Positions 3,331 to 24,483 of a DNA stretch of 32,385 nucleotides are shown here, one piece after another. Position 1 is the stretch's first letter; every line of letters begins with the position of its first letter. A program made the translations under genes and the position numbers. Under the pieces are notes generated by a model. It saw only the letters and a program-made list of their open reading frames with translations. It was not told where the DNA came from and ran no database searches. This stretch comes from a virus: positions 1 to 32,385 of IMG/VR virus record IMGVR_UViG_3300045282_000174; one strand, written 5' to 3'.

Positions 3331-4167
3331 ATGTCATGGTTTAAAGTAGACGGAGATTTACCCGGCCATCCCAAAGTGCTGCGCTTGGCAGCTCTGACAG
3401 GCATGGAGCCGGACCTGGTGGTAGGCAAGCTCAATCGGCTATGGGGATGGGCTCAAAAGTATGCGGAAGATGGCGACCTAAGCCGGTTCGATCCAACCGA
3501 AATTAGCCTGGCCCTGGGCATCCCCCCAGGGATTGATTTTCTCAAAAATCTAATCGCGTGCGGCTTTGTAGATTCCTATCCGTACACCAGAATTCATGAT
3601 TGGTGGGACTACATCGGGCCATGGCTAAATGCCAAGTATAAACGCTCACCGGCAAAATGGAAACGTATAAGACGCCTCTATAATACGCCAGTTTCTCAAC
3701 ACCGCCATGTAACTGTTACAGCACCAGTGACAGAACAGTTACCTAACAGCGACGTAACTGGAAAGATAAGAGGAGATGTGATAAGAAAAGACGTTGAACT
3801 ACAAGACCCCCTTACCCCCACAAGTGGGGGCCTTGCTTCGCAGGAAAATCACCAGCCGGAAGGAGACACCGGCCAACCCCCAAACGCAGAAACCCCAAGG
3901 CCCGCAAAAAGAAGTCTTAGAGCCTTGGGGTTAAACCCCAGGGCCATTGCCAAGGCGCATCAAAAAGCCTTGGAGATGGAGGCCAAACGGCAGGCGGCTA
4001 TAGCCAAGGCTGAGGAACGCCAGCAGGAAACAGTCAGCGACATGACCGACGAGGAGCGCGACGAAATTATGCGGCAGAATGCCCCGCATCTCTGGATGAT
4101 GCGCCAAATCCGAAAAGGCAGGATCGTTGATATTAAAGTCATCACGCCCGACGTGGTAGCCGCGTGA
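3331..4167 (+). CDS. Phage replication-type protein with N-terminal winged helix
   Basis: 278 aa behind a good SD (AAAGGAGGG at 3315-3323). Residues 1-95 (MSWFKVDGDLPGHPKVLRLA..., LWGWAQKYAEDGDL, FVDS...IHDWW) match the first domain of phage replisome-organiser/DnaD-like proteins, which bind origin DNA. The middle (about 120-190) is Pro/Gly/Thr-rich linker, encoding a C5-G5 inverted repeat near 3824-3839. The C-terminus is Ala/Glu/Arg-rich and helical. By position, upstream of the regulatory region, an origin-binding initiator role is plausible but not shown. Confidence 0.55.
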   Translation: MSWFKVDGDLPGHPKVLRLAALTGMEPDLVVGKLNRLWGWAQKYAEDGDLSRFDPTEISLALGIPPGIDFLKNLIACGFVDSYPYTRIHDWWDYIGPWLNAKYKRSPAKWKRIRRLYNTPVSQHRHVTVTAPVTEQLPNSDVTGKIRGDVIRKDVELQDPLTPTSGGLASQENHQPEGDTGQPPNAETPRPAKRSLRALGLNPRAIAKAHQKALEMEAKRQAAIAKAEERQQETVSDMTDEERDEIMRQNAPHLWMMRQIRKGRIVDIKVITPDVVAA

Positions 4168-5098: not shown

Positions 5099-5256
5099 TG
5101 TTTACCTACCGCCTTGAAGTTCTCATTGACGGGGAGTGGGTCATAGCCGCCTCTGGCCTATCCAGCATCGAAGCTCAAGCCGAGGCCCTGGCGTTTACGC
5201 GCTTCAAAATTATTCCCGACGTAGCAGAAAATACTATCATTAGGGAGGTCCGCTAA
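5098..5256 (+). CDS. Hypothetical 52-aa protein
   Basis: TAATG overlap with the gene before it (ATG 5098). The product MFTYRLEVLIDGEWVIAASG... is predicted beta-alpha-beta and resembles small single-domain phage proteins. No family is assigned. The next gene starts on its stop codon (TAATG at 5254-5258). Confidence 0.5.
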   Translation: MFTYRLEVLIDGEWVIAASGLSSIEAQAEALAFTRFKIIPDVAENTIIREVR

Positions 5257-18086: not shown

Positions 18087-18187
18087 AGGACATGGTGACG
18101 GATAAACTCGCGCTGCTAGTGGTCTTGCCCGTGGCCTTTGTGTTTGCCCTGGTGCAGGGATTGGCCCGGCTCTTGAGGCTCCTATGA
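18083..18187 (+). CDS. Single-TM peptide, 34 aa
   Basis: ATGA overlaps at both ends (18083 and 18184). The product MKDMVTDKLALLVVLPVAFVF... is one hydrophobic helix with a basic end (ARLLRLL). Role unknown; coupling supports real translation. Confidence 0.5.
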   Translation: MKDMVTDKLALLVVLPVAFVFALVQGLARLLRLL

Positions 18188-19701
18188 AAATCCCCGCCCA
18201 CCTGAAACGCCAGAACGAACGCCTGGCCAGCCAAAACGCGGAGCTCAAAAACTCCATCGACCATAAGAACGACCAGCTCAATAATTCCCTCTTTGGCCTG
18301 GTGCAGAGCGCCTTTTCTCAGACGGCCTTGGCGTCCTTTGACCCCATCGCCTATAACAATATTTATTCCCCCCTCACGATCAATCACACGATGCTCACCT
18401 ATATGTACAAGACCCACGGCATTATCCAGACGGCCATCGACATGCCGGTGCTGGACGCCTTGCGCGGGGGTCTGGAAATCCAATCAAGCGAGCTCTCGCA
18501 GGACGAGATTAAGGAACTGAGCGCGGCCCTGGACGCCGGACCCCTGGACGTGATCGGGCAGGCGATGGTATGGGCGCGGCTCTATGGCGGCGGGGGCATC
18601 ATTATCAACGCGCCTGGGGAAGCCTCTACCCCTCTCAAATTGGAAGGTTTTGAATCGGAGTCAATGCAGCCCTGGGAAATCATCTCTCCGATCCTGGGCC
18701 GGACCCGCTTGAACTACTCCGAGGCACGGCCCCAGGCCATCTTGAAAGACGTGGAGATATACCCCGTCAACCGATGGGAGCTCAATTCCACGAATCGGTT
18801 CAGCGAGTTTTACGACTTTTACGGCAAGCGCATCCACTCAAGCCGGGTGCTCACCATGGCGGGCAAGGCCGCTCCGTACCTGATTCGCTGGACTCTCCAA
18901 AATTGGGGGATGTCGGAAGTCGAGAAGATGGTAGAGGACTTCAACGCCTACATCCGAACCAAGAACGTCGTCTATGAACTCTTGAAAGAAGCCAAGATCG
19001 ACGTTTACCAATTCGAAAATTTCACCACGCAGCTCGCGACCAACCGGGGCACGGACCTGACGATTGCCCGCGTGGAGCTCATGAACCGGGTCAAGAATTT
19101 CCAGAATGCGGTTGTGCTCGACGCCAAGGATAAATTCGAGCAGAAGCAAATCACCTTTGGCGGGCTCGCGGAAGTCATGAAGCAGAACATGATCGGCATC
19201 GCCTCAGCCCTCCGCATCCCCATGACAAAGCTCTTTGGTCTTTCCTCCACCGGCTTTAACTCAGGCGAGGACGATATTGAAAATTACAACGCCATGGTGG
19301 AATCCGAGGTACGCCAGCCCTTGCGCGCGGTCATCCAGAAAGTCATCCAGCTCTACTGCCTGAAACTCTTTGGCGCGGAGTTTGAAGTCACGTTCAATTT
19401 TAAAGCCCTGCGCGTCATGTCCTCTCTCGACGAAGAAACAATCAAAACCCAAAAGCACGCGCGCTACGTAAGCCTCTACCAGCAGGGGCTACTCACCCCC
19501 CAGGAAACCATGGAGCTCATGCAAAACGAAAAGCTCATCCCCATGGAAACCGAAGTCGGGCGCGGGGCTGACCCCCTGGAATCCCCCGGCCATGAGGACC
19601 AGGGCGAAGGCGAAGGTGACTTTGGAGAGGACGCCCCTGAACCGGGCAAGGAGGAGAGCCATGGAAACCCCAAACCCAAATCCGCTGCCGCTGCTGAATA
19701 G
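18184..19701 (+). CDS. Portal protein, DUF1073 family
   Basis: 505 aa. Motifs typical of DUF1073 portals: SPLTINHTMLTYMYKTHGIIQTAIDMPVLDALRGGLEI, WARLYGGGGIIIN, NRWELN, IHSSRVLTMAGKAAPY, and TKLFGLSSTGFNSGEDDIENYNAMVES. It forms the dodecameric DNA gate at one capsid vertex. The N-terminus is a short coiled coil (NERLASQNAELKNSIDHKN). The last 45 residues are acidic, Gly/Pro-rich. The family is related in sequence to proteins named after anti-CBASS Acb1, but this is a full portal. Confidence 0.9.
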   Translation: MKIPAHLKRQNERLASQNAELKNSIDHKNDQLNNSLFGLVQSAFSQTALASFDPIAYNNIYSPLTINHTMLTYMYKTHGIIQTAIDMPVLDALRGGLEIQSSELSQDEIKELSAALDAGPLDVIGQAMVWARLYGGGGIIINAPGEASTPLKLEGFESESMQPWEIISPILGRTRLNYSEARPQAILKDVEIYPVNRWELNSTNRFSEFYDFYGKRIHSSRVLTMAGKAAPYLIRWTLQNWGMSEVEKMVEDFNAYIRTKNVVYELLKEAKIDVYQFENFTTQLATNRGTDLTIARVELMNRVKNFQNAVVLDAKDKFEQKQITFGGLAEVMKQNMIGIASALRIPMTKLFGLSSTGFNSGEDDIENYNAMVESEVRQPLRAVIQKVIQLYCLKLFGAEFEVTFNFKALRVMSSLDEETIKTQKHARYVSLYQQGLLTPQETMELMQNEKLIPMETEVGRGADPLESPGHEDQGEGEGDFGEDAPEPGKEESHGNPKPKSAAAAE

Positions 19702-19867
19702 AGATTTCGAGATCAAGGTGACGTTCAACCCATCGAACGGCAAGGTGACAATCACCGCGCCGATGGAGATGAAAGGCGATTGCATCAAGGCTCTGACCAC
19801 GGCCATTCAGATCGTGGTGGACTATAACCCCGCCCTCGTAACCAAGGGCAACGGGAACGGGAACTGA
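19661..19867 (+). CDS. Hypothetical 68-aa protein
   Basis: ATG 19661 with SD AAGGAGG upstream, inside the 3' end of the portal gene. FEIKVTFNPSNGKVTITAPMEMKGDCIKALTTAIQIVVDYN suggests a two-strand-plus-helix fold. Stop and next start overlap (TGATG). No family is assigned; a small virion or assembly protein is likely by position. Confidence 0.55.
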   Translation: METPNPNPLPLLNRDFEIKVTFNPSNGKVTITAPMEMKGDCIKALTTAIQIVVDYNPALVTKGNGNGN

Positions 19868-20856
19868 TGAAAACACTTCCGGCGCAGCCGATCCGTCCGG
19901 CCTATTGGACCGACATCGAGCGCCAATTGAAAGAGATTTTCTGGCTGATTGTATTCAAGCCAGTCGTCGATATGCTCAAGGAAGCCAACCCACAGGTCAC
20001 AGATCGAACGATCCGGCTTGCGAACGCGGGTGAGGAGGACTTACGCCTGGCATTAAGGACGGGCCAAATCCAGTATGCCGATGGCGTATTCAGCGGCAAA
20101 TTCTCCTCCGCGACCAGCCGAGCGTTGAGGGCCATGGGCGCAAAGCTGCAATCGCGGAGGGTTGTTTTTACCCTCTCGCCGTCCGATGTACCGGCCTGGG
20201 TACGCGCGGAGGCCGGGGCCTATACGGTGAGAGCCAAGGAACTCCATGACGCCACTCTCAGGAAATTGGATCAAGTTAAAGCGGATTTGGCCAGCGCGGT
20301 CCAGGCCCACCGGGTCAACCCCGCTGCCTCTGTAGACGCCTTCCAAAAAGGATTTAAACATCTTGCCACACGCCTTGAGATCACCCCTGAGCTCGCCAGC
20401 CATTCGCGTGCGGCCCTCTTAGAGGACTACACAAAGAACATGGACCTCTGGATTCAGAAATTCTCGGAGGGCATGATAGGCGGCTTGCGCGAGGCCGTAG
20501 AGGATAATGCGATGCAGGGCTACCGTTTTGACAAGCTCATCGGCGGCATCAAATCCCGCTATGGCGTCACCACTTCAAAGGCCCGCTTCCTGGCACGACA
20601 GGAGACGGGCCTTTTTATGTCGAAGTTCCGGCGCGAGAGATTCAGCGAGGCCGGGGTGACTCACTACAAATGGAGCACGTCGAACGATGAGCGGGTAAGA
20701 AACTCTCATCGCGCCTTGGACGGAAAGATATTCGCCTACGCAGACCCCCCCACCGTGGCGACCATTCCAAAACTCCGTAAGGCGAACCCCGGAGAAGATT
20801 TCAATTGCCGTTGCGTCGATATTCCAATCCTGTCACCCCTATCGGAGGCCGCATGA
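19867..20856 (+). CDS. Mu gpF-like head morphogenesis protein
   Basis: 329 aa. The C-terminal domain (about 225-325) contains ARFLARQETGLFMSKFRRER, HYKWSTSNDERVRNSHRALDG and NPGEDFNCRCVDIP, the signature of Phage_Mu_F (PF04233) minor head proteins with the late NCRC motif. The N-terminal half is helical. Such proteins join the portal vertex inside the prohead, and may be injected. TGATG coupled to the gene before; the end overlaps the Acb2-like gene by 4 bases. Confidence 0.88.
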   Translation: MKTLPAQPIRPAYWTDIERQLKEIFWLIVFKPVVDMLKEANPQVTDRTIRLANAGEEDLRLALRTGQIQYADGVFSGKFSSATSRALRAMGAKLQSRRVVFTLSPSDVPAWVRAEAGAYTVRAKELHDATLRKLDQVKADLASAVQAHRVNPAASVDAFQKGFKHLATRLEITPELASHSRAALLEDYTKNMDLWIQKFSEGMIGGLREAVEDNAMQGYRFDKLIGGIKSRYGVTTSKARFLARQETGLFMSKFRRERFSEAGVTHYKWSTSNDERVRNSHRALDGKIFAYADPPTVATIPKLRKANPGEDFNCRCVDIPILSPLSEAA

Positions 20857-21074
20857 CCCCTCAAGAAATTGAACGGATTTTTACCTATCACTCGCCGGTC
20901 GGAGATCAGCCGGAACGCTACACTCGCCTGCGAGACAAGGCCAAGGAGCTCGCCCTGCTCATCCTAGAGGTAACGCCTGCCAGCGCGGATCAATCGGACG
21001 CCATCCGTAAGCTGCGTGAATGCGTGATGACGGCCAACGCTTCGATTGCCCTTGAACATAAGGAGGCCGCATGA
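20853..21074 (+). CDS. Acb2-like anti-CBASS cyclic-nucleotide sponge
   Basis: 73 aa. FTYHSPVGDQPERYTRLRDK (10-29), KELALLILEVTPAS (31-44), AIRKLRECVM (50-59) and ANASIA (61-66) match the Acb2/Tad1 hairpin family: FTYHxPxxxQxxRYxxLRxxAKxxAxxI...P.S...xxAxxKLxExVMxANAxIA. Acb2 proteins form hexamers that sequester cyclic di- and trinucleotides and so block CBASS (and in related forms Thoeris) signalling; Y12 and the Lys around 29-31 are in the region where the ligand is held. ATG 20853 overlaps the gpF-like gene. Location in the head operon would give expression with virion genes. Confidence 0.8.
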   Translation: MTPQEIERIFTYHSPVGDQPERYTRLRDKAKELALLILEVTPASADQSDAIRKLRECVMTANASIALEHKEAA

Positions 21075-21386: not shown

Positions 21387-21733
21387 TTAACCGCGAAGGC
21401 TTAGAGGAAGGGCAGCGGCGCTATGGCGCGAAGAACGCCGGGGAGAAATGCGCGGCCTGCGGTCACGGTCACGATGGGGATGTCTGCGACGATTGCGAGT
21501 GCCGGGTATTCTCCAAGGCCCGCGCGAACGACTCCTCTGAGCTCGGATACGGCTACCCCAAAGGAACCACCACATCCCCCTCTCAGGCAGGCGGGGGCCA
21601 GAAATTCTATGAGCCCACGCGCGACCGGGGCGAATACGCCATGTGCGCTTGCGGCCACGAAAAGGCCATGCACAAGGGACCAGGGGGAGCCTGCTATGGC
21701 TGTCTCTGTAAAGGAATAACCAATGCCCACTAA
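21383..21733 (+). CDS. Double Cys/His-knuckle protein, 116 aa
   Basis: GTG 21383 in a GTGA overlap is preferred to ATG 21338. Two copies of one module: CAACGHGHDGDVCDDCEC and CACGHEKAMHKGPGGACYGC, i.e. C-x(1-2)-C-G-H-x(1-4)-H-x(4-7)-C-x2-C-x-C. A Ser/Thr/Gly-rich linker lies between. Probably two zinc knuckles; target unknown. Its end overlaps the next gene by 11 bases. Confidence 0.55.
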   Translation: MINREGLEEGQRRYGAKNAGEKCAACGHGHDGDVCDDCECRVFSKARANDSSELGYGYPKGTTTSPSQAGGGQKFYEPTRDRGEYAMCACGHEKAMHKGPGGACYGCLCKGITNAH

Positions 21734-22937
21734 CGCCAGCCATCGCCATGAACTGACAGAGGAAAACAATTTTGCGGTCTGCAAAATTTGCGGGGATCGG
21801 TGGGCTCTCACGAACCTCGAAAACCAATCCGGGGAGCGCGGGCGCAAGGTCCGGGTGCGGTTCATTGAGCCCGGCCTGGTCCGCTATAACGACGTGGGCA
21901 CGGTCCTGGTATCCAAGAAAGCCCTTGACCTATTCGCCCAAACCATCGAAGGCCGTCCCATCTTCAACGAAACCCATAAGGAAACCTCGCACGACGATTT
22001 CTCATCCGGCAAGGCCGACGGCATCATGGGCGGCAATATCCGATTTGAAAACGACGGATGGTATTGGGCTGACGCCTACGTTTGGAATTCCGCGACTCTG
22101 GATAACATCGTGCAGAACGGCTACAAGGTGTCCTGCGCTTACGACGTGAAAAAGTGGTCGGATGGCGGGGGCCTGCACAATAATATCCCCTACGACCGGG
22201 AAGTTCTCGACGGAGAATACACGCACATGGCCATCGTTAATAACCCTCGCTATGAGGGGGCGACGATCATCTACAACAACAAAGGAGGCGCTATGAAACT
22301 CAAGTGGTTCACGCGCAGCAAGGAGAAGCCGGAGGAGCAAGTGTCCTCCGAAGTGGAATTAGCCAATGCCGTCGTGCCGCTGGATGGCAAGGACATTCCG
22401 CTGGAAGATGTCATTAAAGGATTCACGGCCAACGCCAAACGGGAACAGGAACTCACTAACGCCAAGCTCGGTGACGATGACCTGATTCAGGTAGGCGAAA
22501 GCAAAATCAGCGTCAAGGAACTCAAGGCCGGATATCTGGCCAGCCTCAGAAACGCCGACGATGACGAGACTGAGGAAGAAAAGAAAAAGCGCAAAGCCAA
22601 AGAAGCCGCTGACAAAAAGGAAAACGCCGACGACACTAAAAAGTGTCCGAAGTGCGGCGGGGAAGGCGAGATCGGTCCCGACGACAAGGAATGCCCCAAG
22701 TGCAAAGGTGAAGGGGAAGTATCCAACGCCGATGACGACTCCGACGAGGAAAAAGAAAAAAAGAAAAAGGCGAAGGAAGCGGCTGAGAAAAAGGAGCGCG
22801 AGAACGCTCTACAGATGGAGGAGTTGCGGACACTGGCGAATTCGAGGCCCGGTAAGTTCGAGCAGCCAAAGGTCATGACCCCCTCTGAAAAAGAGGCCGA
22901 AGGCTACAAGCGGTACGGGCCAATTCAAACTCACTAA
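21723..22937 (+). CDS. DUF2213 protein: prohead protease-like domain fused to scaffold
   Basis: 404 aa. N-terminal finger H7/H9/C20/C23. Residues 43-188 are DUF2213 (VRVRFIEPGLVRYNDVGTVLV, ...GRPIFNETHKE, NGYKVSCAYDV, YTHMAIVNNPRYEGA). The arrangement H85 or H90, then S137 in VSCAY, then 'HMAIVNNPR' resembles phage S78-type prohead proteases, so a head protease role is plausible but inferred. Residues 191-404 are acidic, Lys/Glu-rich coiled coil (scaffold-like) with CPKCGGEGEIG and CPKCKGEGE, a DnaJ-like zinc pair. An internal start with perfect SD (see the nested entry) would make the scaffold alone. Confidence 0.82.
   Translation: MPTNASHRHELTEENNFAVCKICGDRWALTNLENQSGERGRKVRVRFIEPGLVRYNDVGTVLVSKKALDLFAQTIEGRPIFNETHKETSHDDFSSGKADGIMGGNIRFENDGWYWADAYVWNSATLDNIVQNGYKVSCAYDVKKWSDGGGLHNNIPYDREVLDGEYTHMAIVNNPRYEGATIIYNNKGGAMKLKWFTRSKEKPEEQVSSEVELANAVVPLDGKDIPLEDVIKGFTANAKREQELTNAKLGDDDLIQVGESKISVKELKAGYLASLRNADDDETEEEKKKRKAKEAADKKENADDTKKCPKCGGEGEIGPDDKECPKCKGEGEVSNADDDSDEEKEKKKKAKEAAEKKERENALQMEELRTLANSRPGKFEQPKVMTPSEKEAEGYKRYGPIQTH
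22281..22295 (+). promoter_or_regulatory. Internal ribosome site and start codon within the DUF2213 gene
   Basis: AAAGGAGG (22281-22288), four bases, ATG (22293). Same frame as the long gene. It is as strong as any ribosome site in the window. Confidence 0.7.
22293..22937 (+). CDS. Nested in-frame scaffold protein, 214 aa
   Basis: Starts at codon 191 of the DUF2213 gene behind the SD at 22281-22288 and shares its C-terminus. The product MKLKWFTRSKEKPEEQ... is a charged helical protein with the two CPKC-type zinc motifs and a C-terminal ELRTLANSRPGKF, as expected for an internal scaffold that copolymerises with capsid protein. The parallel is lambda C/Nu3 and Mu I/Z, where the scaffold is made from a start inside the protease gene. 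That this start is used here is inferred from the ribosome site and the domain border. Confidence 0.65.
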   Translation: MKLKWFTRSKEKPEEQVSSEVELANAVVPLDGKDIPLEDVIKGFTANAKREQELTNAKLGDDDLIQVGESKISVKELKAGYLASLRNADDDETEEEKKKRKAKEAADKKENADDTKKCPKCGGEGEIGPDDKECPKCKGEGEVSNADDDSDEEKEKKKKAKEAAEKKERENALQMEELRTLANSRPGKFEQPKVMTPSEKEAEGYKRYGPIQTH

Positions 22938-22951
22938 AGGAGGACACAGCA

Positions 22952-23419
22952 ATGGTAACACTCAATCCAAATCAATTCGCCCAGACCGCGATGCAGGGCG
23001 ACATTGATCTAGGCATCATGCAGACCGGGGCGATTTCAGGACGGATCAGCCCTAACCAGGCGACCCCGCTCCTCGCGGGAACCCCGGTGAAACTCGATAC
23101 TGCCGTGACCAGCGGGAAGCTCCCGATGTTCATCGCGGCAGCGGTAGGAGATGTCGCATTCGGATATCTCAAGCGGACGCTCAAGCAATCCATCTTTGCC
23201 CTGGGAGACGATTGCGAAGTCATTTGTAACCCTGCGCCCGTCATGTGGTTGACCGCCAAGAACACGGTGGCCATGGGCGCATCGGTAGAAAGCGGGACAG
23301 ACCCCCTCACGGTACAGACCACCTCCGCACAAAAAGCCAGAGGGATCGCCCTTGAACCAGCGACGGACGGCCAGCTAGTCCGCGTGTACCTGTTAGCACC
23401 GTTCGCCATCGGAGCATAA
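22952..23419 (+). CDS. Capsid decoration/cement-like protein
   Basis: 155 aa, SD AAGGAGG at 22938-22944. GAISGRISPNQATPLLAGTPVKLD and AVGDVAFGYLKRTLKQSIFALGDDCEV resemble the DUF2190-like or phage structural-cement beta proteins usually placed just before a DUF2184 capsid gene; later GIALEPATDGQLVRVYL supports the same fold. It would bind the outside of the capsid. The family name is not certain. Confidence 0.65.
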   Translation: MVTLNPNQFAQTAMQGDIDLGIMQTGAISGRISPNQATPLLAGTPVKLDTAVTSGKLPMFIAAAVGDVAFGYLKRTLKQSIFALGDDCEVICNPAPVMWLTAKNTVAMGASVESGTDPLTVQTTSAQKARGIALEPATDGQLVRVYLLAPFAIGA

Positions 23420-23457: not shown

Positions 23458-24483
23458 ATGCCAACACAGCAAAGAGCCGACATCCCCTGGCAGCCGGGGC
23501 TGTCGCTTCGTAATTCAAACGGGGATATTGATTCCTCGACGCTCGGCTACCAATACGCCAAGCAAACCACGAACCTTGTACGTCCTCAAGTCGTGGCGCA
23601 GAAGTATTACACCGTCCCACTCGCGGAGTTTGTGCCGGTCATTATCGGCAGCGGGGCCTGGATGGAAGGGATTATCACCAACCTCACCTATGACGCAGCG
23701 GGTGATTTTGAATCGGGGATCATCTCAGTAGCAGACCCGTCACGGATCGCACAGGTAAGCGCCGGTCTTGCGCCGAAGCTGGCCAAGATCACCACTTGGG
23801 CTAAGGGCTACACCTATTCCACGCCGGAAGTCGAGAAGGCCATGGCGTCGAATAATTGGGATGTCGTAGCCGCCAAGCTCTCCGCTCTCAAGCGGAATTG
23901 GGATTTGGGAATCCAGAAAATCGGGTTCCTGGGCTCGAAGGTGGACCCGGTAGGAATCCCCGGCTTGCTCTCAAGCCCGGATGTCAACGTGGACACGGCC
24001 ATCATAACCAAGGCCATCAGCGCGATGAGCGCCGATGAGCTGACGACATTTATCAGCTTGATCTTGGGTGATGCCTTCGCCAATTCCAATTCGACTGTGA
24101 AGCCGAATCGGTGGGTGATGCCCATGAAAGACTTCCTGGGCCTTGGCGTGCCGTATTCCTCAGCCTATCCAAACGTCTCGAAGCTCTCATACCTCACGCA
24201 GATGTTGCGCGAGCTCAGTGAGGATGCCAGCTTCAAGATTTCGGGATTGGCCTATTGCGACCAGGCGAACAACGCCGGGTATTGGGCGGTCAACGGAACT
24301 AATCGGCACATCCTCTACCGAAAAGACCCGGAGACGCTCAAGATGGATATTCCCGTGGACTTCCAGCTCGGAGCCCCTGGGACAGGCAATAACTTCAATT
24401 GGGAAGGCGTGGGAGTCGGCCAATTCACCGGCGCGATTTTCTACCGGCCCCGTGAAGCCAAGTATTACGACTGGGCGGCGTAA
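23458..24483 (+). CDS. Major capsid protein, DUF2184 family
   Basis: 341 aa behind AAAGGAGATATC (23442-23453), very like the T7 capsid-gene ribosome site, consistent with very high expression. Sequence blocks: YAKQTTNLVRPQVVAQKYYTVPLAEFVPV, GAWMEGI, ITTWAKGYTYSTPEVEKA, WDLGIQKIGFLG, and PVDFQLGAPGTGNNF...GQFTGAIFYRP near the end. These match DUF2184, an HK97-fold capsid group of myo- and siphophages. Flanked by cement-like protein and connector genes as usual. Confidence 0.88.
   Translation: MPTQQRADIPWQPGLSLRNSNGDIDSSTLGYQYAKQTTNLVRPQVVAQKYYTVPLAEFVPVIIGSGAWMEGIITNLTYDAAGDFESGIISVADPSRIAQVSAGLAPKLAKITTWAKGYTYSTPEVEKAMASNNWDVVAAKLSALKRNWDLGIQKIGFLGSKVDPVGIPGLLSSPDVNVDTAIITKAISAMSADELTTFISLILGDAFANSNSTVKPNRWVMPMKDFLGLGVPYSSAYPNVSKLSYLTQMLRELSEDASFKISGLAYCDQANNAGYWAVNGTNRHILYRKDPETLKMDIPVDFQLGAPGTGNNFNWEGVGVGQFTGAIFYRPREAKYYDWAA

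Follow-up and report, generated by a model that had tools for sequence, protein, structure and literature searches.

The question raised by this locus is whether a single head gene gives rise to one protein or two, and what part its products would play in building the phage capsid. The stretch of DNA analysed here (the window) is a virus record of 32,385 bases, which profile searches of its genes identify as a contractile-tailed phage. The genes of interest run in the order terminase, portal (PF06381), Mu F-like protein, the gene at 21723-22937, a small head protein, capsid protein (PF09950) and sheath. An earlier note on this DNA had proposed that the gene at 21723-22937, which joins a DUF2213 domain to an acidic tail, contains a nested in-frame scaffold gene on the plan of lambda C/Nu3 and Mu I/Z, and that DUF2213 is a head protease. 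The features concerned are as follows.

21723-22937, + strand: full-length gene for a putative protease-scaffold protein of 404 amino acids, DUF2213 followed by an acidic helical tail (PF09979, E 2e-7; phrog_2229, E 2e-13)
22952-23419, + strand: small head gene lying after the scaffold gene and before that of the capsid protein (weak matches to head-fibre and head-scaffolding profiles)
23458-24483, + strand: major capsid protein, PF09950, partner and putative substrate (profile matches)

The small head gene occupies the position of the decoration gene in pbunaviruses. Also within the head gene cluster, adjoining the Mu F-like gene, is a small open reading frame (20805-21074, + strand) that strongly matches the profile of the Acb2/Tad1 hairpin domain (PF24729, E 1e-13) and is likely, from this match, to encode an anti-CBASS or anti-Thoeris sponge protein. 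Elsewhere, the window carries a ParB-like nuclease/partition gene (1344-1964) and, beyond it, a gene for a replication initiation protein (3331-4167).

22281-22288, + strand: internal Shine-Dalgarno (SD) sequence AAAGGAGG, read directly from the sequence, four bases (CGCT) before the ATG at 22293 and conserved in homologues
22293-22937, + strand: putative nested in-frame scaffold gene, 214 amino acids (MKLKWF...), with ATG, GTG or TTG at the start column in 74 of the 80 homologues that have a residue there

The signal that had been described, an SD with four-base spacing followed by an in-frame ATG at the border between DUF2213 and the tail, is present exactly so. The ATG at 22293 is 190 codons in frame from the ATG at 21723, both reading frames end at the same stop (22935-22937), and the nested start falls at the end of the DUF2213 domain, where the pLDDT of the model drops from around 95 (residues 40-180) to below 50 (residues 189-193 and 200-211). 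The calculated anti-SD duplex energy of the nested start is -11.8 kcal/mol, compared with -5.7 for the full-length start, and it represents the second strongest ribosome-binding site of the 28 gene starts scored in the window. Scored in the same way, the starts of Mu Z (-7.4) and lambda Nu3 (-6.4) are weaker. Judged from the sequence, the tail half is almost certainly also made alone, as a separate internal scaffold protein.

Direct searches of viral contigs with the DUF2213 protein or with the capsid protein returned no relatives; loci were fetched via the portal protein, then via alignments, giving 106 distinct DUF2213 homologues. An internal ATG after the domain with an SD energy of -8 or lower is found in 28 of 38 non-redundant full-length homologues, compared with 14.4 ± 2.6 in 300 within-gene shuffles of synonymous codons (maximum 22), and the summed SD energy is -344 as against -282 ± 12 after shuffling. 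Among other in-frame internal ATGs in the homologues, 4.5% reach -8. The p-values for single genes are weak (0.083 for the window gene) and the support comes from the family as a whole; because related sequences are not independent, we place more weight on the qualitative facts of start codon, SD and split gene than on the shuffle counts. In a peptide-only alignment, the codon at the column of M191 of the window gene is ATG in 62 genes, TTG in three and, wherever the residue is Val (nine genes), GTG; among the six cases with other codons, several are simply misaligned, the true start lying beside the column. GTG accounts for only 463 of the 2384 Val codons (19%) in the homologue genes, as against nine of nine here. 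Relative to the start, the SD core occupies each of the three frames (36/32/11), at a spacing of 3-11 nt, and encodes differing peptides; the peptide is therefore not what is conserved. The internal SD and start, whose conservation was the check proposed for the nested gene, are thus retained across the homologues.

The signal extends to cultured phages, including Listeria B054 (-11.2), psageK9 (-11.8), Yersinia 526-2 (-9.5) and CP-T1 (-8.9), and phi1422, a cultured phage of the wider family, has an internal start signal too. The cultured-phage records examined annotate a single coding sequence at the locus and no nested gene. A weak or absent border SD was seen in five relatives (L137, L143, L140, L165 and L167) and in phages Faunus and PVN02. 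These five relatives retain the border start codon despite having little or no SD; L165 and L167 are A/T-rich and may infect hosts that initiate translation without an SD. Two further relatives, L126 (2973-6393) and L171 (5844-6462), have DUF2213 joined to quite different C-terminal parts with no scaffold-like start or tail, the L126 protein being over 1000 residues long, and the domain is thus also used outside the scaffold plan.

One relative, L037, encodes the protease and scaffold as separate open reading frames, with the protease stop (TAA) at 5240 and the scaffold ATG at 5255 in another frame. Its GGAGGATAAC block is the same as in the fused relatives L036, L155 and L158, and in L159 in all but the last base; the stop codon precedes the ribosome-binding site, which is retained out of the protease frame. 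It is unlikely that one sequencing indel, between 5214 and 5238, has produced a false split here, since the extra stretch and stop in L037 speak against such an origin. L017 was considered as a second split gene and rejected, as it has no scaffold downstream.

The arrangement in L037 bears upon two other explanations of the border sequence. The purine-rich stretch could be a by-product of a conserved NSKGG-like linker peptide rather than an initiation site, and it is the case that a strong SD survives synonymous shuffling in 14.4 of the 38 genes, because Lys, Glu and Gly codons are themselves purine-rich. However, the real genes exceed this null, the SD occurs in all three frames (encoding KGG, KE, GEN and QGG), the start column is almost exclusively ATG, GTG or TTG, and L037 keeps the ribosome-binding site where it no longer lies in frame with the protease. 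We consider the linker explanation extremely improbable and, on these sequence comparisons, reject both chance and peptide constraint as the source of the internal start. It has been proposed more generally that ribosomes pause at SD-like sites, and an SD placed exactly at the domain border could hold translation there, giving the protease domain time to fold ahead of tail synthesis. A pause site needs no start codon, yet a start codon at 3-11 nt has been kept, GTG and TTG substitute for ATG, and in L037 a gene starts from the SD. Pausing alone is very unlikely indeed, and an internal initiation site is the reading we carry forward.

21840-22286, + strand: DUF2213 domain, residues 40-188, predicted assemblin-like fold (models with pLDDT of around 95 and 93; VIA-align)
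21975-21977, + strand: codon of H85, candidate catalytic His (invariant, 117/117)
22131-22133, + strand: codon of S137, candidate nucleophile (invariant, 116/116)
22224-22226, + strand: codon of H168, candidate third triad residue (invariant, 114/114)

The first half of the gene matches PF09979 (DUF2213) over residues 64-177 with 31.5 bits against a gathering score of 22, and 35 of 45 homologues match phrog_2229, a head maturation protease family. A domain model for residues 38-189, built with 45 aligned sequences, has a mean pLDDT of 93. With Foldseek alone, MCE domains ranked highest and no PDB match reached E ≤ 0.001; the likeness to assemblin rests on the re-alignment of Foldseek candidates with VIA-align, in which rows 1-21 for the domain model are all herpesvirus proteases or T4 gp21. 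These include the proteases of VZV (Z 10.4, 112 residues aligned, 3.0 Å) and pseudorabies virus (Z 9.9) as well as gp21 itself (Z 9.4, 122 residues aligned, 3.2 Å), with the first unrelated fold at Z 6.6. With the full-length model gp21 is the top match (Z 9.8), and matching viral predicted structures are often named prohead protease or DUF2213.

Conservation was counted over 117 aligned sequences, eleven cultured phages among them, and gaps are the sole exceptions to the invariance of H85, S137 and H168. Herpesvirus proteases use a Ser-His-His triad (PMC4498786), with which the three residues agree in type. Given the fold matches and the three invariant residues, the models suggest that DUF2213 is probably an assemblin-type protease with a Ser-His-His triad. 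The head-protease role put forward in the earlier note is thus supported, and the predicted fold is indeed protease-like, but the details are changed. Of the residues it had named, H85 and S137 are invariant, whereas H90 is His in just one of the 117 sequences, that of the window, and H168 had been missed. The S78 proteases had been suggested for comparison, but both fold and residues favour the assemblin/gp21 group, and at E 0.01 none of the Pfam families to which 45 members gave matches is an S78 model. Comparison by hhalign with the single sequences of HK97 gp4, Mu I and T4 gp21 detected no sequence similarity.

The C-terminal half of the protein is acidic, mostly helical or disordered in the model, and encoded directly upstream of the capsid gene. 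In phage Pa193, residues 286-326 of the DUF2213 protein gp24 remain bound inside the capsid as pentamers at the vertices, as seen by cryo-EM; that protein was named a putative scaffold, possibly cleaved, and a protease is unmentioned (PMC11042391). The scaffold tail in the window also carries two CPKC/CxGxG zinc-ribbon-like pairs (22644-22730, residues 308-335). A DnaJ or anti-TRAP function for this tail was rejected, as the weak profile matches stem from the CxxC pairs and are given by one of 45 members.

22359-22844, + strand: seven putative cleavage motifs of the form [LMIVRK]xN[AS] in the scaffold, with N at residues 215, 246, 277, 301, 335, 361 and 373 (shuffle test)
23506-23517, + strand: LRNS at residues 17-20 of the capsid protein, in its N-terminal arm, a putative cleavage motif (motif count in homologues)

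When all dipeptides are counted in 81 non-redundant scaffold halves, NS (215 vs 69) and NA (292 vs 109) stand furthest above expectation, with L, R, M, V or K preferred two residues before the Asn. The combined motif [LMIVRK]xN[AS] occurs 402 times in these halves against 63.7 expected; for the window scaffold the count is seven against 0.37, a number reached in none of 5000 shuffles. The motif is at or below expectation in the sheath, terminase and small head protein, while its enrichment is 1.2-fold in portals, 1.4-fold in Mu F-like proteins, 2.2-fold in the DUF2213 domain and 2.1-fold in capsid proteins. Within the capsid N-terminal zone, defined as the 40 residues preceding the first core motif, 36 of 48 homologous capsid proteins have it, compared with 6.0 expected. 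Counted in the same way, T4 gp22 yields an excess of LxE/IxE (16 vs 5.8), which is the known T4 cleavage code. Taken on sequence, [LMIVRK]-x-N-[A/S] is a probable cut site of the DUF2213 protease, and a putative scissile bond either before or after the A/S would fit.

In the branch containing Aaphi23 and the pbunaviruses, DA and DS are moderately enriched instead of NA and NS. The pbunavirus capsid protein has SAMDS at residues 61-65, identical in LBL3 and Pa193, and the capsid proteins of E217 and Pa193 are resolved from residue 66 only, with residues 1-65 absent from the maps. For E217, the authors suggested cleavage or disorder of the N-terminus (PMC10329688). The D-S motif coincides with the start of the resolved capsid protein.

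It may be argued that the N-[A/S] repeats are helix caps or scaffold binding motifs, an explanation which would touch only the substrate code. Asn is a common helix N-cap and D, P and E are enriched at the positions that follow N-[A/S] in scaffolds, as this would lead one to expect. Against it stand the excess of A or S after the Asn, far above expectation, the hydrophobic or basic residue two positions before, the recurrence of the same motif at one place in the capsid arm, and the agreement between the pbunavirus D-S and the first resolved capsid residue. We regard the helix-cap explanation as unlikely, although it deserves to be taken seriously. A further alternative accepts the nested gene as real and supposes that DUF2213 is no longer an enzyme and acts as an assemblin-like structural core protein. 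Its activity is only predicted, and biochemistry of DUF2213 is absent from the papers found by an open-literature search. Such a role sits poorly with three polar residues that are invariant in over 110 divergent sequences, with a cleavage-like motif in both scaffold and capsid arm, and with the lack of residues 1-65 in the E217 and Pa193 maps, and we judge it very improbable.

Returning to the motif as a putative cut site, in most relatives N-S-K directly precedes the internal start and could mark where the scaffold is released from the protease. Neither the window nor its two closest relatives, L004 and L007, have N-[A/S] at this point, and the window fusion may release its scaffold at LANA (213-216). 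The Mu F-like protein (19867-20856) has LANA at 51-54 and the portal (18184-19701) has LKNS and LNNS near its N-terminus; in Pa193, the first 93 residues of the portal are missing from the map. Both proteins may be further substrates.

Taken together, it is highly likely that this one gene provides both a protease-scaffold fusion and free scaffold, with an assemblin-fold protease and processing directed by the motif. Initiation at the weak SD of 21723 would give a small amount of the fusion, while initiation at the near-perfect SD of 22293 would give the 214-residue scaffold in excess. Through their common C-terminal half, the fusion would co-assemble with free scaffold in the prohead and bring the protease with it. 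There DUF2213 would act as a serine protease of assemblin fold, with S137, H85 and probably H168 as its catalytic residues, and after assembly would cut the scaffold, the fusion and the N-terminal arm of the capsid protein at hydrophobic/basic-x-N-[A/S] sites. This cleavage would clear the prohead before packaging and allow it to mature.

The comparison with lambda C/Nu3 and Mu I/Z drawn in the earlier note holds for gene layout and does not extend beyond it. Lambda has an in-frame, 3'-coterminal scaffold within its protease gene, but the annotation of lambda C is that of an S49 peptidase, whose fold class is not that of the DUF2213 model. Mu I/Z also lies upstream of the capsid gene and has an in-frame nested scaffold with an internal ribosome-binding site at a corresponding relative position (residue 179 of 361), but the likeness to Mu I is one of layout, with no sequence similarity by hhalign. 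The models place the window gene closer in fold to herpesvirus UL26/UL26.5, whilst in layout it is like lambda C/Nu3. Like the herpesvirus gene, the window gene has, to judge from its best structural matches, an assemblin fold, its invariant His, Ser and His are candidates for the Ser-His-His triad, and protease domain, linker and scaffold come in this order; the UL26.5 scaffold is also made alone, in frame and with a common 3' end (PMC4498786). The herpesvirus gene differs in having no detectable sequence similarity to the phage gene, in that the phage has an internal ribosome-binding site, in having about two cleavage sites in its scaffold compared with many putative sites, and in that the phage motif is present in the capsid arm too. 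T4 offers a fold match in gp21 (Z 9.4-9.8) and a scaffold, gp22, with many LxE/IxE cleavage-type motifs. However, gp22 is a separate gene, the motif differs, and the internal start lies early in gene 21, giving a shorter protease. Pa193 gp24 (PDB 9b40) is a DUF2213 homologue (E 5e-4 over 86 positions, with the Ser and second His motifs aligned) and the scaffold remnant seen inside the capsid comes from its C-terminal part; unlike the window gene it was published as scaffold only, it has D-[A/S] instead of N-[A/S], and the internal SD of its relative LBL3 is weak. We think it rather likely that DUF2213 modules are the phage counterpart of UL26/UL26.5, with an L-x-N-[A/S] code (D-[A/S] in the pbunavirus/Aaphi23 branch) that predicts the mature N-terminus of the capsid protein.

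Parts of this picture were known already, as PHROGs names related families head maturation protease and nested scaffolds occur elsewhere. In the open literature, with subscription papers outside the scope of the search, we found no prior report of DUF2213 as a protease or with a nested scaffold, and none of the third residue or a substrate code. A single DUF2213 protein matches 909 records of cultured phages; hundreds of cultured phages thus carry the gene, some of them used in therapy. Published structures show a scaffold remnant and lack the N-termini of the capsid protein; the proposed protease-scaffold gene would account for both, and would give DUF2213, a domain to which no function had been assigned, a testable role as a protease whose residues and cut sites can be named. 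The phage system would then parallel that of herpesviruses in fold, likely triad and gene plan and, if this is true, the substrate code could be read from genomes across a very large phage family.
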